The notes under the pieces: generated by a model | Database searches by the model: none | What the model saw: only the letters and a program-made list of their open reading frames with translations | What the model was told of the DNA's origin: nothing | IMG/VR virus record: IMGVR_UViG_3300049825_000745 | Location: 1 to 64,000 of that record | Length of the DNA stretch: 64,000 nt | Origin: a virus | Strand: one strand, 5' to 3' | Shown here: one piece after another, positions 1-63,261 of the stretch | How the letters are laid out: every line of letters starts with the position of its first letter | Position numbering within the stretch: position 1 is the stretch's first letter | Made by a program: the position numbers and the translations under genes

Positions 1-124
1 TTGGGAACCAGGACTCCTGCCCTTGGAGGGTATGTAAGACCAAACGGACTACGGAGTCTTGGCGGCAATGCCCGTTGAATTGGGAAGCCCACACTGTACC
101 GAAGGTCAGTGTGTGGTAGTTCAC
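1..124 (+). ncRNA. Solo IS605-type right-end RNA element, copy A (cut by window start)
   Basis: This is the 3' part of a repeat found complete at 37432-37679 and 55626-55873 and slightly shorter at 62283-62494. It matches those copies base for base as far as I can read, up to the shared terminus GTAGTTCAC (116-124), after which the copies diverge. The last hairpin (about 88-117) has arms CCACACTG and CAGTGTG around an inner ACC-GAA-GGT loop. It resembles right ends of cyanobacterial tnpB elements that encode the guide RNA scaffold. No long ORF explains its conservation. If it acts like an omega RNA, the guide would be the flank starting ACGCAGCAGGTTGAATAATG, which covers the start of the next ORF. 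Confidence 0.6.
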
Positions 125-141
125 ACGCAGCAGGTTGAATA

Positions 142-243
142 ATGGCTGAAACAATTGAAGAAAAGCAAGCAGATTTCATGACGTGGCCTAGGGCTATGCG
201 TCGGAATAAGGAATGGCAGGAAAGGCTAGATATGAAGCGTGAC
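142..243 (+). pseudogene. Small phage gene broken by IS insertion
   Basis: An ATG ORF begins 17 bases after RNA element A with an acidic, Trp/Arg-rich start (MAETIEEKQADFMTWPRAMR). After roughly 34 codons the frame runs into the right end of the IS200/IS605 element and then antisense through tnpB to a stop near 387. The native 3' end is therefore missing. I do not recognise the family. The continuation beyond the IS near 2100 is not evident, so a deletion may have accompanied the insertion. Confidence 0.4.
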
Positions 244-245
244 AT

Positions 246-275
246 ACTCCCGACGCTGATGCTACGCCTACAGCG
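246..275 (-). repeat. Right-end hairpin of the IS (presumed 3' part of its omega RNA)
   Basis: On the minus strand CCCGCGCTG and CAGCGTCGGG pair around a loop containing GCGTAGC. The hairpin overlaps the last tnpB codons and its stop. Right-end hairpins at this place are the 3' portion of the TnpB guide RNA, and the guide would be read from the flank after about 245. Confidence 0.55.
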
Positions 276-1482
276 CGGGCTTCTCAGTGACCCCTGGAAT
301 CCCATCGGGCGTTTCCTGAGCTTTAAGGGCGGGATGACCCACCGCCCTATTTCTGATATTGATAGCCGCGTTATGGTCGCGATCTAGTTCACATCCGCAA
401 TGATGGCAGGAGTGCCATCTATCTTGGATAGTCTTAGGAACCTTATGCCCACAACTTGAGCAGTTTTGAGTTGTACCGTTTGGATTCACTGCAATTGCCA
501 TCAGTCCAGCTCTTTCAGCCTTGACCGATAGGATTTTCAGGAATTGACCCCATCCAGCGTCATGGGTCGATTTTGCCATCCGAGTTCTGGCAATGCCCTT
601 GATATTGAGCGCCTCATGCCCAATATTCTTTCCTTTGTTTAAAAGCTTTTTAGCTGTCTTGTAGTGAAAGTCTTTGCGTTGATTGGCAACCTTGAGGTGC
701 AATTTAGCCAAACGCTTAATCGCCTTTTTGCGACGGTTTGACCCCTTCTTTTTACGAGACAGGGAACGTTGCACTCGTTTGAGACGTTTCTCGGCTTTGC
801 GGTAGGGTTGAGGGATGGACACCTCTTCACCCGTATCTGTCATCAAAAACACCTTCAGCCCCATATCAATCCCGATAGTGTTCTCCAGGATGGGCGTTTC
901 TGGAATCACATCAGGAACACTGGCATCCTCAAGACTCAGGCTGACATACCAACCATCAGCCTTGAGTGTTATAGTTGCCGTCTTAATTTTGAAGCCTACA
1001 GGCAATGGACGGTGTTGAATGAATTTGACATCGCCAAGCACTGGAAACGTAATGAATTTCCCCTCAACACAGTCCTGCTTCATCTGAGGAAATGTGAAAG
1101 ACCGATATCTTCCTTTCCCCTTAAAGCGTGGTTTACCTGACCTTTTGCCGCTGCTATCTCCTTCCAAAAAACGGTCGAACGCCTTTTTAACTCGTTCAAT
1201 ACAGTTTTGTAAAACTTGAGATTGAACCCTTTTATATTCAGGAAACAACGCTTTGGAGTTAACCAAATCCCGCTTCTGAGAGTAGAAATCAGGATTGTCT
1301 TTAAGGGCTGGCAAATAGCAAACCAAAGGACAAGCGTTAATAGGAGATCGGTTCTCCTCATACCAACGAAACCGCTCACCCAAGCGGTAATTGTACTGAC
1401 GACGCAACAATTCCAGCCAGTTATCCATCAAAGACTCCTGGACAGGTGTTGGGCGTAGTCGATACTGGTAGGCAATTCTCAT
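268..1482 (-). CDS. tnpB: TnpB RNA-guided nuclease of an IS200/IS605 element
   Basis: A 404-residue protein of normal TnpB length. The RuvC-like active site is complete: D206 in GIDMG, E290 in GHEALNIKG, and D369 in DRDHNAA. A zinc finger with C341/C344 and C359/C362 lies between the second and third acidic residues, and a basic helical segment (about 228-285) precedes E290. I chose the ATG at 1482 (MRIAYQYRLRPT), the usual TnpB start; the frame is open further upstream but would overlap tnpA. TnpB cleaves DNA guided by an RNA made from its own 3' end and favours retention of the element. The last codons overlap the right-end hairpin. Confidence 0.9.
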   Translation of the reverse strand: MRIAYQYRLRPTPVQESLMDNWLELLRRQYNYRLGERFRWYEENRSPINACPLVCYLPALKDNPDFYSQKRDLVNSKALFPEYKRVQSQVLQNCIERVKKAFDRFLEGDSSGKRSGKPRFKGKGRYRSFTFPQMKQDCVEGKFITFPVLGDVKFIQHRPLPVGFKIKTATITLKADGWYVSLSLEDASVPDVIPETPILENTIGIDMGLKVFLMTDTGEEVSIPQPYRKAEKRLKRVQRSLSRKKKGSNRRKKAIKRLAKLHLKVANQRKDFHYKTAKKLLNKGKNIGHEALNIKGIARTRMAKSTHDAGWGQFLKILSVKAERAGLMAIAVNPNGTTQNCSSCGHKVPKTIQDRWHSCHHCGCELDRDHNAAINIRNRAVGHPALKAQETPDGIPGVTEKPAL

Positions 1483-1548
1483 GTCTCTATTATACTCACT
1501 GTAGCTTAAAATAGATACACTGATAAGAGAAATCATTGTAAACTGTTG

Positions 1549-1959
1549 ATGAAAGACGATTTTGTATCCAGTGGTAGATCCGTGTCTGACATGAAAGCTC
1601 ATTTGGTGCTGACAACCAAGTATCGCCGCAAGGTGCTCACGGGCGAGATGATTCAACGGCTAGGTGAAGTGATGGGCGATTTATGTCAGAAATGGAACTG
1701 CAAAATCGTCGAATTTAATGGCGAAGATAATCACATCCATTTGCTATTTCAGTATTTGCCTCAGATGGAGTTACCCAAATTCATCGGAAATTTGAAGTCT
1801 GTCTCCAGTCGAAGGCTCAGAGAAGAGTTTCCCGCTGAAGTTGATAAAGTCTATTGGAAAAAGGTTCTGTGGAACGAGTCTTACTTCATCGCCTCCTGTG
1901 GCGGGGTCACAATCTCGGTTCTGAAGAAATACATTGAGGAGCAAAACACCCCTGAATAG
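1549..1959 (+). CDS. tnpA: TnpA Y1 HUH transposase (IS200/IS605 family)
   Basis: A 136-residue single-strand transposase. The HUH metal-binding pair is H62-I-H64 in DNHIHLLF. The catalytic tyrosine is Y128 in the C-terminal helix (KKYIEEQ). W109 and the SYF segment match the family. I chose the ATG at 1549; a TTG lies directly before it. It is divergent from tnpB with about 66 bases between the starts. It could mobilise other IS605-like ends in trans if they match its end recognition; those of the TTCAC-type repeats in this window look different. Confidence 0.9.
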   Translation: MKDDFVSSGRSVSDMKAHLVLTTKYRRKVLTGEMIQRLGEVMGDLCQKWNCKIVEFNGEDNHIHLLFQYLPQMELPKFIGNLKSVSSRRLREEFPAEVDKVYWKKVLWNESYFIASCGGVTISVLKKYIEEQNTPE

Positions 1960-1989
1960 GGGCATAGATTATTTGTTCGTTTCGGCACT

Positions 1990-2025
1990 GTTGCCTTTCC
2001 TCGCCTCCGGCATTGGTCAGGCAAC
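1990..2025. repeat. Left-end palindrome of the IS
   Basis: GTTGCCT (1990-1996) pairs with AGGCAAC (2019-2025) across a 22-base loop. It sits 31 bases past the tnpA stop, where IS200/IS605 elements carry the TnpA-binding left-end hairpin. Confidence 0.55.
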
Positions 2026-2047
2026 GTACCTCAACTCACGCGCCTTT

Positions 2048-2094
2048 CATCCCGACGCTGACCTGAGTACAGGTACAGCGCGGGGCTTCCCGTC
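2048..2094 (-). repeat. Second IS605-type right-end hairpin, next to the IS left end
   Basis: Read on the minus strand it contains GGGAAGCCCCGCGCTG, a loop TACCTGTACTCAGGT, then CAGCGTCGGGATGAA. The central hairpin (35 bases) is also found at 44764-44798. It carries no transposase or tnpB of its own. Its 3' side runs straight into the left end of the intact IS, so two IS ends are stacked here. Confidence 0.5.
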
Positions 2095-2186
2095 TAAAAG
2101 CTAAAAAGCGCAACCCATTACAGGAGATAAAAGAGTCGGGATCGCCTGAGTAGAGTAGAATATCTATAGTTTTAGGCGATCGCCCC

Positions 2187-3636: not shown

Positions 3637-3775
3637 TTTTAATCTTAGGCCCAGGCTTTTTAGGCTCTGGCACCCATTTATGCCTGCAATCCATGCATTG
3701 TTTGCGATCGCTTCCTGATGGGAGGCGATCGCAATTTGTTATTCGCTCAGACTTACAGACAGGGCACTTATGCAC
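3614..3775 (-). CDS. Small zinc-ribbon protein
   Basis: A 53-residue protein with two CxxC pairs (CPVC near residue 4 and CMDC near residue 29) and a basic, proline-rich tail (KKPGPKIKIKH). The likely start is a GTG at 3775 that overlaps the stop of the upstream DUF6745-like gene by 8 bases, suggesting translational coupling. The spacing of cysteines resembles DNA-binding zinc ribbons of transposases and small phage regulators. Function is unknown. It contains HIP1 octamers inside the coding sequence. Confidence 0.5.
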   Translation of the reverse strand: MHKCPVCKSERITNCDRLPSGSDRKQCMDCRHKWVPEPKKPGPKIKIKHPTTP

Positions 3776-4997
3776 GGATCAACGGGTAAGTTTCAATTTT
3801 ACTGACATCTACACCATGCCTTCCGAATGAAACTTCCGGGGCAAGCAAATACCGTTGAGCTAGCTCACAGGTTTTTAGCCTAGACGGTACCTCAAGAGAG
3901 TATGGGCGACCTGTAGATGGATCGTAGGTGCATAGGACTGTGCCCATACTCGTTTTGATCAGCGATTCCATCCCACCATAGCGGGGCATAGAAATATCTA
4001 ATACCTCACCGTGAGATTCAGAAATATATCGACTCCATCCAAATCGATTAATTCGAATACGACGAATTTCTTCATTCTCCTCATTGTGAATATCTTCAAG
4101 GGTTTGAGTTTCAGGACTCATTACAACTTGTTCGGGAACAAGATACCCTTCCAGTGCCCAAAGGCAATATCCATCTGCATACTCAACGGCTGGCCCATCT
4201 TCACAATGAATACCCCCTGCATCATGCCAGCCTATTTTTGTGGGGCGATCGCAGACTATGCAAGTATTTTCGAATGGGAAAATCCAGTCTAGATTTTTAA
4301 CTATTAATTTATATTGTTCAAATTTGTGGTTATCTAATTTTGCTCCAGCAATCTTTCCCCCAAGAATATAACCTAGAAAAGCTTTTGCGTAATAAAAATT
4401 AAAGCTGTCGCTGAGATTGTCGTGGAGATTGTCGTGGAGATTGTCGCTGAGATTGGCGATGAGATTGGCGATGAGATTGGTGCGGAGATTGTCGTGGAGA
4501 TTGGCGATGAGATTGTCGCCGAGATTGGCGATGAGATTGTCGCGGAGATTGTCGTGGAGATTGGCGATGAGATTGGCGCGGAGATTGGCGCGGAGATTGT
4601 CGCGGAGATTGGCGCGGAGATTGTCGCTGAGATTGTCGTGGAGATTGGTGCGGAGATTGTCGCGGAGATTGGCGCTGAGATTGTCGCTGAGATTGTCGCT
4701 GAGATTGTCGTGGAGATTGGCGCGGAGATTGTCGCTGAGATTGTCGCTGAGATTGGCGATGAGATTGGTGCGGAGATTGGGTTGCTTTAATGTTGTCAAC
4801 AGTAACATTCCTTCTAATGGACTTTTGCAAAACAAGACCTTTGGGGGTTGTTTGTTCACATTAGTATACAAAGCATTGACCGCTTGTTCGGCTAATGCAT
4901 GATCTGTCGGGCTAGCGCACAAATCATAGATTGATTGTCGCATTTTGTAGATATCAGCCCATTGAGAAGATGAGATTGTTTCTATTTTTTTAGGCAT
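3768..4997 (-). CDS. DUF6745-like protein with a long NLxx tetrapeptide repeat
   Basis: A 409-residue protein. Residues about 1-72 form a helical N-terminus, about 73-198 consist of tandem four-residue units NLxx (NLSD, NLRA, NLHD, NLIA and others), and the C-terminal part has the conserved core GGIHCEDGPAVEYADGY, VPEQVV and NEEIRRIRINRFGWSRYI typical of DUF6745 proteins in cyanobacteria and actinobacteria. DUF6745 has no established function. It sits in a leftward cluster with 4990-5202 (8-base overlap) and 5246-5662, a pairing I recall from other genomes. The repeat lies where DUF6745 proteins usually have ordinary helical sequence. Confidence 0.65.
   Translation of the reverse strand: MPKKIETISSSQWADIYKMRQSIYDLCASPTDHALAEQAVNALYTNVNKQPPKVLFCKSPLEGMLLLTTLKQPNLRTNLIANLSDNLSDNLRANLHDNLSDNLSDNLSANLRDNLRTNLHDNLSDNLRANLRDNLRANLRANLIANLHDNLRDNLIANLGDNLIANLHDNLRTNLIANLIANLSDNLHDNLHDNLSDSFNFYYAKAFLGYILGGKIAGAKLDNHKFEQYKLIVKNLDWIFPFENTCIVCDRPTKIGWHDAGGIHCEDGPAVEYADGYCLWALEGYLVPEQVVMSPETQTLEDIHNEENEEIRRIRINRFGWSRYISESHGEVLDISMPRYGGMESLIKTSMGTVLCTYDPSTGRPYSLEVPSRLKTCELAQRYLLAPEVSFGRHGVDVSKIETYPLIRA
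4403..4780 (-). repeat. About 31 tandem 12-base repeats inside the DUF6745-like gene
   Basis: The minus-strand unit is AATCTC followed by two variable codons. The third codon is mostly AGC, CAC, CGC or ATC and the fourth is GAC, GCC or ACC. The unit is a multiple of three, so copy-number change keeps the frame. The array keeps all frames open on both strands, which creates several spurious ORFs. Confidence 0.9.
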
Positions 4998-17400: not shown

Positions 17401-20400
17401 CTCAGGTTCGATCCGTACAGGCTCCTCTCGGTAGGCTAAAAGCTGGTGCCTACAGTGGCCTAAGAAAAAACCTGTCACAGGTCAAAGAAGCGGCAGACGC
17501 TGGCGATGATACGGCTCAAGGCTTTATTGATGGATTTGGGCTAAAGGCTGATGTGATTGCCTCAGTTGCCAATAAGGCAGGCAAAGATTTTATTGCTGAA
17601 ATGAAATCTGTATTAGGAATTGCGTCGCCAGCAAAGGTCACGATTGAGATTGGGAAACAGACGGTTGACGGTTGGGAGATTGGTCTTGAAGATCTTGATG
17701 ATGTTTGGATGAGATCGCTTCGGTCACTTAATAAAGCGATGAAGACAGGCAAAATTGAAGACTTTAGTTTTACTGATGTTGACCGATTATCCAACTCAAT
17801 TAAATCTCAAGTTCAGGCTGGCAATCAAAATATTAAGGTTGACCTTGGTCTTGAAGATCTTGATGATGTTTGGATAAGATCGCTTCGGTCACTTAATAAA
17901 GCGATTAAGACAGGCAAAATTGAAGACTTTAGTTTTACTGATGTTGACCGATTATCCAACTCAATTAAATCTCAAGTTCAGGCTGGCAATCAAAATATTA
18001 AGGTTGACCAATTCGGCACAGTATTAGAAGACGAAAAGCCTAAAGTTCAGAGAACTTATCGTGAAATTGGGTTTGAGATTGGATCTAAGACAAAAGAAGG
18101 CATTGACCAAGCAGCCCCCGTCGTCAAAAAGGCGATCACTTCTCTATCAGATGGCATCATCAATCAACTTCGCATCGTTGCTCCTGGTATCACCGGATTT
18201 ATCGAAGGGATTGGCCTAGACCTTGACAAGTTGAAATCCCTCGGAGCGGCGGGGCTAACCTTGACGGCTGGAGCCGTTGGGGTGGGATTATTTGGCGGGA
18301 AAATCCTTGAGGTTGCCAACAATACCGCCGATGCGGCCACAGAGCAAAATCGATATAAACGGATTCTAGACCAAACCGTTGCGGGGGGCGGAGCTAGTTA
18401 CTACCAAAAACTGGTTAAGCAATCTAATGATTTAGGGAACAACCTTCAAAATGCTGTTAAATCTGCGACGGCAATAGAAACAAGTATTCAGAACACCGCG
18501 CTGGCTGGGACTGGCGTTGAAATCCTAAGCGGGTTTCAATCTCAATTTGCAGCTCAAGGCACACCTGATCAGGACCAAGCGCGCGCGCTTGTGGGGATAG
18601 GTCAGGCATTGCGAAAAAACAAGTTGCAGGCTGAAGAATTATATCAAGTCATTGAGCCACTACCAGGCGCAATGGAAGCATTGCAGGCCGCAACAGGGAA
18701 AACAGGCGCTGAACTATTTAGAGCTACAGCGGCGGGGGAAGTCTTTACGGAAGACGTGATCCAGTCGTGGTCAGACCAACTCAAAATTGTCTCTGGACTA
18801 TCAGGATCGTCGAATACCGCAGAAGCAAGTATGGGGCGGTTGAATAATCAAACTTATCTACTTGCTGCAAACGTGGGGCAGATGACCAACGTTGTCCGCA
18901 AGGTAGGTACTGATTTATTCGGTGGCGCTCTTTCTGTTGCCAACAACAATGCACTATTGCTTGACGCTATGATCGCCACGCTTACCGTATCCTTTGGAGT
19001 GGGATTTGTCGCCGCATTAATAAAGGCTGGAGCAACGCTATTTGCACTTACTGCGACCTCTGCCGTAACTCAGTCTGCTCTAGCGGGGGTGGCCACTGGA
19101 CTAGGCACTATTGCTACTATTGCGGCCCCGGTGACCGCTGCCGCCCTTGCGATCGCCGGAGGTTTTGCGCTGTGGGAGCTGACAAAGCCTAGTGACGATG
19201 TGGAGAAGCTTGCTAACAATGTTAAAAGGCTTACTGACAGACTGAAGGAACTTGAAGCACAGCGGCGCAAAGTAGATAATCCAACAATCGTAAAACCCAC
19301 TGTTCAGAATCTTTCCCTGCCGCTATCCGGCACAGTGGACCCAGCCGCAGGATACAGGGACGCATTCAACGACCTTGCGTCTGGCAAAGTAAAAGAAGAT
19401 GCAAGCAAAGCCAAGCTTGACGAAACGTTGCAGCGGTTTTCTAATGGAATTAGCGAGTCATCTTCTTTTCTATCTGATCTAAAATCTAACGAGAAAGATT
19501 TATTAAACATTAAAAAACTTTCTTTAGAAATTATTGAGCTTCAGGGCAAATCAAACGTTTCCAAATACGAAGGAGACACCAATAAAACAACTAAGTACAA
19601 TGACCAGATCACTGTCCTGACAAAACAACTTGGGACAATTAAAAATTCAAGCCAGTTAACTGAGCAAAAAACGATCTTGCAAGGCTTGATCGCTGAATCT
19701 GATAAATATATCGCCACACAGCAATCAAGTTCCGACCCATCATCAAAATTTAATATCGCAAAGGCAACAGAGTACAAAGATAAACTTAAGAGTATTTATG
19801 AAGAGTTAAATAAAATTGATGGGCTAAGTAATACCTCACTGCAAAAAATCAATGTGGGTATTGAGAATAAAGTATTGCAGGCTGACCGACTGCTGAAGTT
19901 AAAGCAAGACACTGAGCTAAGAATTGAAGCGGAGAATATCAAGCAGTTTGGCGGAAGTGGAACTCAGGACCAGGTTCAACTTGGGGTCTTGAAAGCAAAA
20001 CAGCAGATCCGCAGACTAGATGACACCGCCCAACAGTTCCGTAGCTATTTAGAGGCTTACAATAAAGCTCTGAAAGCTATCACACCTAAGGATAAATCCG
20101 ACCTTGCAAGTGCATTGGCAAGTAAAGGCGTCACACTAGAATCCGCAACAAAAAGCGACTTAGAGGCAGCCATCAAGGTTTTAGAAGCGGGCGATCGCAA
20201 GCCATCCGAATCACTCAAAACCTTTGTGAATAGTGCTGCTATAGCAAAGAAAACAGCAGAGGATAGCCTGTTACAGGGAGCGAAGGAACGCGCTCAAGCT
20301 GTACAGGATGAGGCTGCGTCACAGAAGGCATTGAATGACGCTCAAGTTGATTACGCCCGTACAATCCGTGATAGCAACTATGAGTTGACAAAGGCAATAT

Positions 20401-37350: not shown

Positions 37351-37431
37351 AACCCCACCACCACAAAACAAAATCTTTTGGCAAGTCAAAATTTATCAAA
37401 AAAAACAATGAAATTTCACATTTTAGTTGAC

Positions 37432-37679
37432 AATTGCCCACCCGACGAGACGAACAATGAGTGCAAGATTTTTGATATAATCTATATGTGTTGTACACCA
37501 ATGCCATAAGCGAAAACCAAGCTAACAGGTATGTGTCCAAGCAAAGATTTGAGTCTTGGGAACCAGGACTCCTGCCCTTGGAGGGTATGTAAGACCAAAC
37601 GGACTACGGAGTCTTGGCGGCAATGCCCGTTGAATTGGGAAGCCCACACTGTACCGAAGGTCAGTGTGTGGTAGTTCAC
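37432..37679 (+). ncRNA. Solo IS605-type right-end RNA element, copy B
   Basis: A 248-base element following TTGAC (37427-37431) and ending GTAGTTCAC. It is identical by eye to copy C over its length. An extended -10 promoter TGATATAAT lies at 37473-37481 (TATAAT 37476-37481), so an RNA of about 190 bases would run to the end. Stem-loops: GAGTCTTGG-GAA-CCAGGACTC near 37551, and CCACACTGTACC-GAA-GGTCAGTG at about 37645. No tnpB. If used as a guide RNA, the guide would be ACGTACTCTCAATTACAACT. The element sits just before the gene at 37724. Confidence 0.65.
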
Positions 37680-37723
37680 ACGTACTCTCAATTACAACTA
37701 GCAGACTCGTCTCTTTGCGCCAC

Positions 37724-44685: not shown

Positions 44686-44750
44686 TGGCCACACGAATTA
44701 ATCTAGAAGGCCAGCGGCAAAAAGACGGTCGCCTGACCGCTATCAAATAG
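44685..44750 (+). pseudogene. Gene start truncated at an IS605-type hairpin
   Basis: Twenty-one codons (MATRINLEGQRQKDGRLTAI) that stop where the hairpin repeat at 44752-44803 begins. The start overlaps the upstream stop as in other intact gene pairs here, so the original gene was probably longer and was cut by the insertion. Confidence 0.4.
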
Positions 44751-44751
44751 A

Positions 44752-44803
44752 CCTCCAGGAGTCCCGCGCTGTACCTGTACTCAGGTCAGCGTCGGGAGGA
44801 ATG
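44752..44803 (+). repeat. IS605-type right-end hairpin, isolated
   Basis: The 35-base core CCCGCGCTG-TACCTGTACTCAGGT-CAGCGTCGGGA (44764-44798) is the same as the reverse complement of the hairpin at 2048-2094. Outer arms extend as ACCTCC...GGAGGA. No transposase is near. It breaks the small gene at 44685. Confidence 0.55.
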
Positions 44804-44865
44804 GAGATCTATTTGAGAAAGATGATTTTTACAAAGCAAAAAAGTATCAGAGCTGGAATTTTCAC

Positions 44866-48190: not shown

Positions 48191-48322
48191 CACTCCCTCG
48201 GCTTTAGCCGAGGGATTCTCATTCTTGCTCACAATTCCCCGCGTTAGCAGGGGAATTGCTCACTTACTGAGTTAGCTCCTAGACGGGAAGCCCCGCGCTC
48301 TATCCGCTTCGGATGAGCGTCG
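48187..48322 (+). mobile_element. Minimal IS605-type element (no transposase)
   Basis: TTGAC at the terminase stop (48187-48191) is followed by a left hairpin CCCTCGGCT-TT-AGCCGAGGG, a second palindrome CAATTCCCC...GGGGAATTG, and then a right-end hairpin GACGGGAAGCCCCGCGCT...GAGCGTCGGGATGAA. The order TTGAC, left hairpin, right hairpin fits a transposase-less derivative of about 130 bases. The left hairpin could serve as terminator for the terminase operon. Confidence 0.5.
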
Positions 48323-48645
48323 GGATGAAAGGCGCGGCGGTAAGGAGTCCAACCCCCGAACGATTTTGACCAACGCTCAAACAGTGTGCGGGGTTGGCGA
48401 TGAGCCGCCAAAAGTGTAAGATAGATGCGGTGTAGTCGCCCACCAAAATGTCTGTAACCATCAGAACCAGCATAGTTTGGGAATGACATGCAATGTCTAG
48501 CTCGACCGTGGGTCATCAGGTCGAGGGGAAATAAAGCTCGTGGAGGAGTGAGGGTTGCCTCGTCCTGTGAAGCGAGAAGCCAAGGATTCCGAAGCCCGCG
48601 CTGTATGCTACGCATCAGCGGCGGGTAAGGGAAAGACTAGGATAT
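48323..48645 (+). mobile_element. Decayed IS605/tnpB 3' end
   Basis: A gene-free region. Near 48500-48600 a frame reads GNKARGGVRVASSCEARSQG, resembling the variable C-terminus of cyanobacterial TnpB, and the hairpin GAAGCCCGCGCTG...CAGCGGCGGG (about 48580-48625) is a right end close to that of the intact IS; its loop GCTACGC is the reverse complement of the IS loop GCGTAGC. No complete tnpB remains. Confidence 0.45.
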
Positions 48646-48646
48646 G

Positions 48647-48856
48647 TCACGAGAGTTTTTTGAAAATCTCGATTTGGTACCCCATAGCGTTCAGGAACGC
48701 CTCTAAATCCGTCCACTGGCGTGGTTCTGCCCTAATCCAGCAGGTTAACCGCCTGTGGATGGTTTTGAGTTCCTCATCGGTCTCAGCGGCTAGGGTTTTA
48801 CTAGCCGCGTAGATGGTGAGGTTTTCGTTGTCTAGGATGGTTTGGATGTTGATCAT
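48647..48856 (-). CDS. Small protein, paralogue of the gene at 45339
   Basis: Sixty-nine residues from the ATG at 48856: MINIQTILDNENLTIYAASK, then AETDEELKTIHRRLTCWIRA and LEAFLNAMGYQIEIFKKL. The second part is the same as the 45339 protein with few changes. The extra N-terminal part (residues 1-33) is absent from that copy. It is downstream of the gene at 48921 on the same strand, under the promoter at 49181. Function unknown. Confidence 0.6.
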   Translation of the reverse strand: MINIQTILDNENLTIYAASKTLAAETDEELKTIHRRLTCWIRAEPRQWTDLEAFLNAMGYQIEIFKKLS

Positions 48857-54786: not shown

Positions 54787-55557
54787 ATGCCCATTGCCGC
54801 CCCCACCGCAACAGGCCAAAAGCAGAAGATCGGAGTGCAGGACTATATCAGTGCTGCTGACGGCGCTCGGTTTGTGCTGCTTCGGACTGACCCCGATCCG
54901 GTGGACACCAAGCCGCTAGAGGATGCGATCGCCCTCCTTGCCACGAACGAAGCCGCAGACGATAAAACGGTAGAAGCCCTCGACAAATTAGTCAAAGCCA
55001 TTGACCTAAAACCATTGGGCGATCGCGTTACAGCTCTTGAATCCAAACCCGTAGTCACTACGGATACGGTTATCTCGGACGACGACCCGACTGACGGAGA
55101 CTGGAAGCACTGGTTTAAGCGACTTTACGACCGAACCGCATGGAAGATGGCGGTGATCCACTACGTGCAGATCCTCAAGGGGGAAGCGTGGGCCATGAAC
55201 GCGGCGGACTGGCGAGATATGGCACCTCCGACGCATGAGATTGCCGCTGAGTTGAGTCCGGGTCGATTTCAGATTACGCTACCAGGTGGTGCTGTTTTTA
55301 GCTACGAGACAGGACGAGGCCAAATCCTTGATGGGCTAGAGTTTCCAGCGGACGTTTATATAGGTGCTCAAACAGAGTACCGTGATGCAGCGGGGGATCT
55401 AATCAACCGCACAGCTCGATACCAATCAATTGCACCTGGAAGTGTTGCGTTAGGAATGGGGCGGTTGGATGCCCCTGCCAATGCTGTAACGGTTGCGGTT
55501 ATTTTGATCAAACCGGACAATAGTCAAGTTCGGTATCGGTACCCGTTGCAACCTTAG
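54787..55557 (+). CDS. Fibre-module protein with coiled coil
   Basis: A 256-residue protein. Residues 35-95 form a helical segment (LEDAIALLATNEAADDKTVE, DKLVKAIDLKPLGDRVTALE), like the stalk of trimeric fibres. The C-terminal part is beta-rich (RFQITLPGGAVFSYETGRG, ANAVTVAVILIKPDNSQV). It begins with a Shine-Dalgarno-like GGAGG before the ATG. Probably virion-associated. Confidence 0.55.
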   Translation: MPIAAPTATGQKQKIGVQDYISAADGARFVLLRTDPDPVDTKPLEDAIALLATNEAADDKTVEALDKLVKAIDLKPLGDRVTALESKPVVTTDTVISDDDPTDGDWKHWFKRLYDRTAWKMAVIHYVQILKGEAWAMNAADWRDMAPPTHEIAAELSPGRFQITLPGGAVFSYETGRGQILDGLEFPADVYIGAQTEYRDAAGDLINRTARYQSIAPGSVALGMGRLDAPANAVTVAVILIKPDNSQVRYRYPLQP

Positions 55558-55565
55558 CTTGAATA

Positions 55566-55612
55566 GCAGAAGCCCCGCACCCTACCCACCGGATGGGTGT
55601 CGGGATGAATGA
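55566..55612 (+). repeat. IS605-type right-end hairpin just before RNA element C
   Basis: AGAAGCCCCGCACCC, a loop TACCCACCGGAT, then GGGTGTCGGGATGAA. Stem bases differ in compensatory fashion from the copies at 2048 and 48281 (CGCTG/CAGCG replaced by CACCC/GGGTG), so folding is conserved. It ends 13 bases before the TTGAC that flanks element C. Confidence 0.5.
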
Positions 55613-55625
55613 TAAGTGAGTTGAC

Positions 55626-55873
55626 AATTGCCCACCCGACGAGACGAACAATGAGTGCAAGATTTTTGATATAATCTATATGTGTTGTACACCAATGCCA
55701 TAAGCGAAAACCAAGCTAACAGGTATGTGTCCAAGCAAAGATTTGAGTCTTGGGAACCAGGACTCCTGCCCTTGGAGGGTATGTAAGACCAAACGGACTA
55801 CGGAGTCTTGGCGGCAATGCCCGTTGAATTGGGAAGCCCACACTGTACCGAAGGTCAGTGTGTGGTAGTTCAC
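55626..55873 (+). ncRNA. Solo IS605-type right-end RNA element, copy C
   Basis: A 248-base copy following TTGAC (55621-55625) and ending GTAGTTCAC (55865-55873), identical by eye to copy B. TATAAT lies at 55670-55675 in the extended form TGATATAAT. Its putative guide (AGGAGATCGCATCATGAACA) contains the ribosome binding site and start codon of the gene at 55887, which means the element also sits exactly where a promoter for that gene would be. Confidence 0.65.
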
Positions 55874-55886
55874 AGGAGATCGCATC

Positions 55887-56186
55887 ATGAACAACCCCAT
55901 AGTCGGAACCACGTACAGGCACTGGAAAGGCGACTTATATAGGGCAATTGGCTTTATCCTTATCAAGAACAACTTTCGCGAAGGCATGGCGATCAAAACT
56001 GAGTTTGGTTATGCCATTTGCAGTACGCCATTAGCGCCAGGAGACGAGGCATTTGTCTATCAGTCCGAGGATGGAGAAAAGTTTGTCCGCACGCGCGAGA
56101 GTTTTGCCGAGGTACTTGGGGACAAGGATGAGGGGACAATGTACTATCAATTTCAACGAATTATGGAAGAGGCGATCGCCCCATGA
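55887..56186 (+). CDS. DUF1653-like small protein
   Basis: Ninety-nine residues: VGTTYRHWKGDLYRAIGFIL, then SEDGEKFVRTRESFAEVLGD. The start 'G-x-Y-R-H-x-K-G-x-x-Y' matches DUF1653, a small beta-barrel-like family common in bacteria and phages, function unknown. AGGAG stands 9 bases before the ATG, directly after RNA element C. It overlaps the next fibre gene by 4 bases. Confidence 0.6.
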   Translation: MNNPIVGTTYRHWKGDLYRAIGFILIKNNFREGMAIKTEFGYAICSTPLAPGDEAFVYQSEDGEKFVRTRESFAEVLGDKDEGTMYYQFQRIMEEAIAP

Positions 56187-61505: not shown

Positions 61506-62282
61506 TTAGAAGTCGCGGCGTGACAGTGAGCAGCCCCAGAGTTCTCCTTCAGCTTTTCTTCGTCTGCGTAAGCCCGACTCAGTGGAGGTGCCAGGGTTAA
61601 CGTAAAGGGAGATTGCCGCAGGGACAGCATCCCAGCTTTGTTTTTCAATGCATTTATTCAGCGTATTGAACCCATCGGCTCCAAAAGTCCACCCAGTGTT
61701 AAACGAAAAACTTAGCAATGCCCCTCGCTGCCCATCGGTAATTTCTGCCCATCTAGGCGTTGTTTTGGCTAGATGGTTCCAGAATGCTTTGAGATGAAAG
61801 CGCAATAAATCCTCAGCTTCTTGCTGAGTTATGCGATCCCCTATCTGAACCTTTCGCCCATCCTGATAGAAGGTTGCGCCATATCCAATGGTGCAAACGC
61901 CTACACCGTCGTCATAGGCATCTAATTCGCATCCTTCAAACTCTTTGATTAGATTGATGGCCTGTTGTGGGATTTTCTTTTCAGCCTGTGCTTCCGTGAT
62001 GTGTAAAGCCCCTACCGCTGGACTTGATACGGTAGGGGTTAGGCTTTTTTTGGAAGAATCCAGTAGCCACACGGCGGTTGTGGGGCCAATATTATTCCCT
62101 CCAGAAAGAGAATATTTTTGCTTGAATTGAACCAATGCATTTTGTGTTGCGGAGTTGTAAACTCCATCTGCAATAATGGAAAACCCATGCGCTACAAGGA
62201 CTTGCTGAACTTCTTTGCAAAGCACAGGATCGTTTGATAGCTCAGAGAAGGGGATTGAAGTCTTGAGATCTTTTAGTTGCAT
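61506..62282 (-). CDS. Endolysin: peptidoglycan-binding plus GH24 lysozyme
   Basis: A 258-residue protein. Residues about 18-75 are a PG_binding_1 domain (VQQVLVAHGFSIIADGVYNS, ALVQFKQKYSLSG). Residues 105-258 are T4-type lysozyme with the catalytic set E116, D125 and T131 in the E-8x-D-5x-T spacing (EFEGCELDAY, GVCTIGYG). No signal peptide, so a holin is needed for export; a holin-like gene is at 63261. RNA element D begins right at its ATG. Confidence 0.9.
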   Translation of the reverse strand: MQLKDLKTSIPFSELSNDPVLCKEVQQVLVAHGFSIIADGVYNSATQNALVQFKQKYSLSGGNNIGPTTAVWLLDSSKKSLTPTVSSPAVGALHITEAQAEKKIPQQAINLIKEFEGCELDAYDDGVGVCTIGYGATFYQDGRKVQIGDRITQQEAEDLLRFHLKAFWNHLAKTTPRWAEITDGQRGALLSFSFNTGWTFGADGFNTLNKCIEKQSWDAVPAAISLYVNPGTSTESGLRRRRKAEGELWGCSLSRRDF

Positions 62283-62494
62283 ATTTTTGATATAATCTAT
62301 ATGTGTTGTACACCAATGCCATAAGCGAAAACCAAGCTAACAGGTATGTGTCCAAGCAAAGATTTGAGTCTTGGGAACCAGGACTCCTGCCCTTGGAGGG
62401 TATGTAAGACCAAACGGACTACGGAGTCTTGGCGGCAATGCCCGTTGAATTGGGAAGCCCACACTGTACCGAAGGTCAGTGTGTGGTAGTTCAC
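62283..62494 (+). ncRNA. Solo IS605-type right-end RNA element, copy D (short left end)
   Basis: Identical by eye to copies B and C from ATTTTTGATATAATC onward, but lacks their 50 left-end bases and the TTGAC. The extended -10 (TATAAT 62291-62296) and all hairpins are kept. It fills the whole gap between the C39-like gene stop and the endolysin start, in the opposite direction to both. Its RNA would run towards the 3' end of the C39-like gene; the putative guide is TTCACTTATTCCACTTTAAC, which covers that gene's stop. Confidence 0.6.
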
Positions 62495-62499
62495 TTCAC

Positions 62500-63261
62500 T
62501 TATTCCACTTTAACGCGATGCACCCAAGCGCCTTTACGCATTGAGTCAAGTTCGCGCTTTTGATAGATGGCGATCGCGTCTGAAACTGATTGTCCCGCAA
62601 CAATGGCAGCATATAACCCGTGGGCACTGTAATCGCCATCGTATCGATCAACGCTGGGATTATTGTAAGCCCATGCCCCAAAACTGAACTCTGACCACGG
62701 ATCCTTAACGCTGATTTTGTAACTCATGTTTGACGGGTCTATCGTTACACCATCTAAGCAAATCACATGGCCCGACCCGGTGAACCAGCCGTGAGTGATT
62801 AAAAACTCTCCTGCTTTTAGCCACTCTCTAATTTCAGAAAGACAGGCATTGTCATCGAAGATATAACGATCACCTAAAGCTTTTTTGAGCAGGACTCCCA
62901 TCACTCCAGGGTTTCCAGGCTCTCCGATGTCTTCTAGCTCTGCCCGAATCTGCATGATGTCCGTGCGTCCCGTAGCCATTGCGATGCAGGTTGATTGACA
63001 GGTGTAGGCGTTGGGCTGAGATAACAAGCCCTTTGCTTCTAAAACCTGTTCGGCAAACGTGCCAGACACGCCCTGAGGCTTCGTCTTGACTGGCATCGGT
63101 AACGGGACAGGCGCGTTACCGTCTAGATCAAGCGCAATAGTATGCGGACGGCTGGGAAGCAAAGGATCTCCAGTAGGAGATTTTTTTACAGTAACTTTAG
63201 ACGTGAAAAACCCGTCCACCATGTAATACAAAATGCCGTCTTTATACAGTCCCCAAGCCAT
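62500..63261 (-). CDS. C39-like cysteine peptidase
   Basis: A 253-residue protein with C92 in YTCQSTCIAMATG, H165 in GSGHVICLDGV, and D187 in VKDPW, the order of C39-type peptidases, and a helper Q89. The N-terminal 80 residues are a beta region. In a lysis cluster beside GH24 lysozyme and a holin-like gene, it is probably a second wall hydrolase, cutting peptide bridges. Start at 63261 overlaps the holin-like stop by one base. Confidence 0.7.
   Translation of the reverse strand: MAWGLYKDGILYYMVDGFFTSKVTVKKSPTGDPLLPSRPHTIALDLDGNAPVPLPMPVKTKPQGVSGTFAEQVLEAKGLLSQPNAYTCQSTCIAMATGRTDIMQIRAELEDIGEPGNPGVMGVLLKKALGDRYIFDDNACLSEIREWLKAGEFLITHGWFTGSGHVICLDGVTIDPSNMSYKISVKDPWSEFSFGAWAYNNPSVDRYDGDYSAHGLYAAIVAGQSVSDAIAIYQKRELDSMRKGAWVHRVKVE

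Follow-up and report, generated by a model that had tools for sequence, protein, structure and literature searches.

A tnpB-less element with a predicted omega-RNA, repeated in a tailed-phage record and matched in cyanobacterial genomes

TnpB guide RNAs are usually viewed as part of the tnpB mRNA, serving the transposon from which they come. The locus described here raises the question of why a sequence resembling the omega-RNA end of a tnpB element should recur in a single phage record with no tnpA or tnpB inside it. Our preferred reading, to which we give a probability of about 0.7, is that it is an internally deleted, non-autonomous IS200/IS605 derivative of the IS1341 type that has kept a promoter and an omega-RNA and works in trans.

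Copies and ends of the element in the phage record

The window, that is, the whole stretch of DNA analysed, comprises bases 1-64000 of a 64,538-base IMG/VR parent record (G000) from a phage of cyanobacterial type, with tailed-phage genes for the large and small terminase subunits, portal, major head protein, tape measure and lysozyme. As the preliminary description had claimed, four places in it (1-124, 37432-37679, 55626-55873 and 62283-62494; copies A to D) are 100% identical over their shared length, all end in GTAGTTCAC, and carry the extended -10 TGATATAAT in every complete copy (B, C and D). Exact repeats of 212-248 nt within 64 kb exclude a chance origin, and the 3′ flanks of the copies are all different. 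A fifth place (E) lies just past the window, at 64324-64535 of the parent record. The first 127 bases of the record are identical to its last 127, an exact overlap of place E with copy A, so that E and A are either a single copy of a circular record or the two sides of an assembly break inside a repeat.

The earlier limits of the element were those of the longest stretch common to the copies; we set the true left ends by comparison with relatives, which gives a size of 218-316 bp in the phage (Table 1). Relatives that carry tnpB (L009-L030) start mostly right after TTTAG, as CTTGAACAGCAAGAAGCC-hairpin-GATGAATTGCGCGTGAGTTGACGAC or close variants, and copy C reads CTTGAATAGCAGAAGCC-hairpin-GGGATGAATGATAAGTGAGTTGACAATT after CCTTAG. 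The likeness of these left ends (CTTGAACAGCAAGAAGCC...GAGTTGACGAC after TTTAG in the tnpB elements, CTTGAATAGCAGAAGCC...GAGTTGACAATT after TTAG in copy C) places copy C at 55558-55873. Copy B begins with TTGACAATT after TTTTAG, and copies D and E begin with TTGCATATTTTTG after TTTTAG and ATTTAG, respectively, one short, hairpin-less left end thus being found at two different sites. Subterminal hairpins are present at both ends of copy C and of many relatives; the left one, normally needed by TnpA, is absent from B, D and E. The TTGAC said to precede B and C is indeed there, as AGTTGAC directly before the shared stretch, but it is not the left boundary, as C begins further upstream, and we rejected it as a target motif because in longer relatives it falls inside the left end. 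Lacking tnpA and tnpB of its own, the element is a non-autonomous derivative, comparable to the tnpB-only IS1341 elements.

Copy C lies exactly between two gene signals, the TAG stop of the gene at 54787-55557 and the AGGAG that serves as ribosome site for the following gene (55887), and its excision in silico joins the stop codon to that ribosome site. GenBank phages gave no DNA match to the element. No related phage was found, the best lysozyme and helicase relatives (54% and 52% identical) being too distant for an empty-site test of the phage insertions. When the would-be guides were compared with the phage itself, no target adjacent to TAG, TAA or GAG was found except one site with 4 mismatches.

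Table 1. Positions of the element copies, their predicted parts and the resident insertion sequence in the window
Feature	Position	Strand	Remarks
Resident IS605	239-2100	-	tnpB 268-1656, minus; tnpA 1546-1959, plus; target TTTAG
Copy A	1-124	+	3′ part of the element, truncated by the record start; continues at 64324-64535 if the record is circular
Copy B	37427-37679	+	Solo omega-RNA element (predicted); left end without LE hairpin; after TTTTAG
Copy C	55558-55873	+	Fullest element, 316 bp, with LE hairpin; after CCTTAG
Copy D	62277-62494	+	Short left end, preceded by TTTTAG; located where the lysozyme gene (61506-62282, minus) starts
Extended -10 TGATATAAT, copy B	37473-37481	+	
Extended -10 TGATATAAT, copy C	55667-55675	+	
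Extended -10 TGATATAAT, copy D	62288-62296	+	
Predicted omega-RNA scaffold, copy B	37489-37679	+	~190 nt; start inferred from the -10
3′ subterminal hairpin of scaffold, copy B	37643-37671	+	8 nt from the element end; arms co-vary
Would-be guide, copy B	37680-37699	+	3′ flank ACGTACTCTCAATTACAACT; placed by homology with TnpB omega-RNAs
Would-be guide, copy C	55874-55893	+	
Would-be guide, copy D	62495-62514	+	
Would-be guide, copy A/E	125-144	+	

Several other features of the record deserve mention. The lysozyme gene has its predicted start codon inside the left end of copy D (62277-62282), and the insertion may therefore have altered the start of the protein. A second, different tnpB-less element at 48276-48650, with a left end of CTCCTAGACGGGAAGCCCC-hairpin after TTAG and a right end in ...GGATATGTCAC, corresponds in type to the resident IS605 and is probably another solo right-end RNA. 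At 44749-44830 a long palindrome (AATAGACCTCC...GGAGATCTATT) surrounds an IS605-type hairpin in a gene-free stretch. Some 40 units of a 12-bp tandem repeat at 4346-4840 encode NLxDNLxxNL repeats within an ORF at 3768-4997, and the tape measure gene holds a near-perfect 165-bp tandem duplication (17680-18009).

Relatives, RNA structure and promoter

Judged by its sequence matches, the element is not peculiar to this phage and is widespread in cyanobacteria. Matches were found in 17 of the 18 cyanobacterial genomes or records searched, which had been reached through loci, and at E ≤ 1e-15 in 63 of 391 genomes of one order, the best among the 391 being 90% identical across all 212 bases. Plasmid records yielded a solo match (85%) in Nostoc sp. 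UHCC 0926 and matches of 88% at the extreme 3′ end of Trichormus variabilis tnpB. Scanning for the core as an exact pattern containing GAGTCTTGG gave no match because most relatives read GGGTCTTGG; the corrected core pattern led to two more viral contigs, each with a solo copy and without a TnpB of this kind.

The origin of the sequence is evident from intact tnpB genes (L129, L133, L135, L136 and L007), whose 3′ end is a more distant copy of the block: C-terminal code (e.g., VLGTRTAAEGGEVRPK) is followed by GAAGCC-hairpin-GTAGTTCAC. The proposal that the element corresponds to a tnpB right end encoding an omega-RNA is borne out by this homology to tnpB ends elsewhere and not by a tnpB attached to the element itself. 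Among 63 fetched loci, 8 have a tnpB frame or fragment that reads into the element, and the 52 loci of greater similarity have none. With no cognate tnpB in the phage record either, the claim of amplification without tnpB holds. The solo copies keep the TnpB C-terminal code as a decayed, interrupted relic (V-L-G-T-R-T), and for them we reject the idea that the element is part of a longer coding gene. A tnpB remnant adjacent to one copy (L121) was assigned to another IS, whose right end directly precedes the element.

The 3′ flanks of solo copies differ at nearly all loci. Several solo copies occur in single cyanobacteria such as Anabaena azotica FACHB-119 and Microseira wollei NIES-4236. In two species a solo element is found at one and the same position ahead of a gene resembling psbK (L119 2839-3201; L279), with terminal hairpins that differ in sequence. 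In some solo copies (L006 2880-3131, L120 and L266) the 5′ half of the scaffold is enlarged by an insert, which in L006 contains CTCTACGAGACGCTACGCGAACGCTC.

The strong stem-loops noted earlier are supported by covariation. RNAalifold applied to 37 solo sequences gave a model of 34 pairs in which 99.0% of cells are paired, against 26-52% when the partners are slid. Seven pairs have changed on both sides, with 18 double-change cells, and either number was reached in 0 of 500 shuffles, uncorrected for relatedness. The covarying helices reach to about 180 nt from the element end. For the hypervariable 3′ hairpin, tested separately, own arms outperformed swapped arms, and none of 10,000 permutations was as good. 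Folded singly, the copy sequence is mildly better than its shuffles (z -1.77). The 3′ hairpin lies within ~10 nt of the scaffold end, a position reported as the sole feature common to diverse TnpB omega-RNAs (PMC10278001). A search of Rfam, its HEARO and sotRNA families included, was negative both at the gathering score and with E values of up to 5, and we accordingly rejected an IscB/HEARO identity.

Of 53 solo copies examined, 40 have an extended -10 (TGNTANNNT) ahead of the scaffold; 39 of these matches are -29 to -31 from the scaffold block, and ~8% would be expected per 50-nt window. A promoter of the element's own, as proposed, is thus indicated by an extended -10 at fixed spacing.

Target sites, possible partner enzymes and competing explanations

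Past mobility was established in relatives by searching related genomes for the joined flanks of two cyanobacterial copies, L262 and L251. For L262, 11 relatives carry the empty site, GGATTTAA followed by TTCAC, with no duplication; these alleles read GGATTT(A/G)A and then at once the 3′ flank (TT(C/T/G)A..CATGAACCG), with a few mismatches. For L251, 21 empty alleles read TTAA (TGAA in one) followed by ATCGTTATACTAACTG, again with no duplication, and 16 nt of the 3′ flank are identical in nearly all of them. These clean empty sites show that insertion takes place after TTAA without target duplication, as in IS200/IS605 elements, which insert 3′ of a short motif; for copy C the gene context indicates the same. 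Since the 3′ flank is also the empty allele beside the motif, the arrangement has the TAM-plus-target geometry of TnpB, with a flank-derived guide that in L251 and L262 matches the empty site next to the TAM. The motif preceding the phage copies is TTAG, which is targeted both by the resident IS605 and by a TnpB clade that shares their right end.

That clade, which includes Trichormus variabilis WP_041457360 and targets TTTAG, is on sequence grounds the best candidate for the TnpB partner. At E ≤ 1e-100 the clade was detected in 229 of 391 genomes, among them 39 of the 48 with strong solo matches and 190 of the 343 others (odds ratio 3.5, p = 0.0005, phylogeny uncorrected). A near relative of the candidate is missing from the genomes holding the closest copies (G029 and G141), whose TnpBs are at ~40% identity or less. 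In G119, another of the genomes with the closest copies, the only near relative (L432 1498-2391) has lost ~120 residues in frame over RuvC-I and RuvC-II, with its ends intact; it has GTGTAGTTCAC as its right end and shares the left-end stretch GACGAGACGAACAA with the phage copies. This single gene in a fragmented assembly possibly encodes a nuclease-dead TnpB with a cognate right end. The phage record encodes one TnpB, which shares 36% identity with the likely cognate clade.

For TnpA, a candidate source is the resident phage IS605, which encodes a Y1 TnpA and has a left-end hairpin, GAAGCCCC, resembling that of copy C. This IS has split a phage gene that starts at 142 and has ~49 codons, and joining the flanks of the IS restores the frame. 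Given its TTTAG target and similar left-end hairpin, the earlier statement that no IS end in the window matches the element was too strong. The dependence on enzymes in trans proposed there is still predicted for TnpB, there being no cognate in the record, but an outside TnpA may not be needed, as the phage has a Y1 TnpA of its own.

For expression and movement we infer the following course. Deletion of the tnpB body would have fused the left-end promoter directly to the right-end omega-RNA scaffold. The promoter would then drive an RNA of ~190 nt through the scaffold, plus ~16-20 nt of flanking DNA as guide, while TnpA acting in trans, perhaps that of the phage IS605, would insert the element immediately 3′ of (T)TTAG, leaving the target unduplicated. 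TnpB, likewise supplied in trans, would load the RNA and cut element-free copies of the site, and repair after cleavage would restore the element there.

Could the repeats instead be an artefact of assembly, a single element copied into several contig joins? They exceed the likely k-mer (127-nt end overlap), so that false joins are possible, and the record terminates in a copy. However, the left ends are of three kinds and the right flanks of four, joining the flanks of copy C gives a plausible gene junction (a stop codon next to a ribosome site), copy D sits in a coherent lysis cassette, and related elements elsewhere have clean empty sites, so that we regard this explanation as very improbable. 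A more serious alternative, though still an unlikely one, is a passive MITE or PATE, in which the right end is kept only as a DNA hairpin for TnpA and the RNA is a non-functional residue of tnpB. The 3′ hairpin does double as a TnpA substrate, and a PATE of Halanaerobium with a tnpB 3′ end and RE is on record (PMC7290912). Yet ~180 nt are conserved with distant covarying helices, well beyond what TnpA requires of an end, and the extended -10 is retained at fixed spacing. The core is also better conserved than the flanks at fixed insertions: across six orthologous ones the 180-nt core differs at 46 of 1068 positions (4.3%) and the flanks at 84 of 959 (8.8%) and 224 of 1666 (13.4%), 95 of the 224 coming from one pair, L253/L257. 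This lower divergence suggests selection, with gene conversion or misaligned flanks as alternatives.

It is also conceivable, if improbable, that the solo RNAs are domesticated guides that regulate nearby genes together with a nuclease-dead, TldR-like TnpB or another host protein. Some old insertions have been kept in place across species, as at the psbK-like gene, and the TnpB of G119 combines a matching right end with the in-frame loss of its RuvC middle. Against this, insertions are scattered and their 3′ flanks differ almost everywhere; the neighbouring dead tnpB typical of TldR guides is missing, as no tnpB lies beside the solo copies, and the G119 gene is located elsewhere. We therefore retain the internally deleted IS200/IS605 derivative as the best explanation.

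Relation to known systems and significance

The predicted RNA resembles the omega-RNAs (reRNAs) of TnpB in ISDra2 and other IS200/IS605 elements (PMC8612924, PMC10278001) in its right-end origin, its 3′ hairpin <10 nt from the scaffold end, its guide from the 3′ flank and its insertion after a short motif that would be the TAM. It differs in that the element has no tnpB, has its own promoter directly upstream and would need the protein in trans. As short, ends-only sequences with no transposase that would rely on TnpA in trans, the copies resemble PATEs and IS200/IS605 MITEs (PMC7290912; Haloquadratum PATEs, PMC3119063); they are gene-less and share their left and right ends with tnpB elements (L009-L030), and the Halanaerobium PATE likewise retains the last part of tnpB and the right end (PMC7290912). 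Unlike PATEs, they belong to a large family that spans numerous genomes of cyanobacteria and phages and whose members have a covarying RNA and a promoter at constant spacing. The TldR system of nuclease-dead TnpB repressors with phage-encoded guides (PMC13418256) also places a TnpB-type guide RNA on a phage; the present RNA differs from it in having no adjacent dead TnpB and in occurring in several copies with different flanks.

The element is thus a PATE/MITE-type derivative combined with a standalone omega-RNA. Standalone omega-RNAs of IscB, reportedly described by Altae-Tran et al. in 2021, lie at loci away from that of the nuclease and are presumed to work in trans. The element shares this separation and presumed mode of action and differs in being of the TnpB type, with a 3′-side guide, and in being demonstrably inserted as a mobile element. 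In the open-access literature we found no description of a family of promoter-bearing elements consisting of a TnpB omega-RNA only. The 147 MITEs of Anabaena sp. 90 have been reported as unrelated to any IS (PMC3542288), and some of them might be solo omega-RNA elements.

TnpB-driven displacement of element-free plasmids has been demonstrated for a cis element (PMC11870625). We speculate, recognizing that the odds are against so extended a scheme, that solo omega-RNAs may be RNA-only selfish homing elements which hijack resident TnpB and TnpA and are repaired into empty alleles. They would then parasitize TnpB transposons at two levels, with phages as vehicles from host to host, and the guide set of this phage could steer the host TnpB against element-free phage relatives.

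The proposal can be tested directly, given a target rule (TTAA/TTAG), empty alleles and a candidate clade of TnpB. If true, a conserved family with its own promoter that has lost the nuclease gene and retained the guide RNA would make TnpB a common resource, usable by parasites in trans, and would offer a natural test of whether the benefit of TnpB to a transposon, be it retention or gene drive, works in trans.
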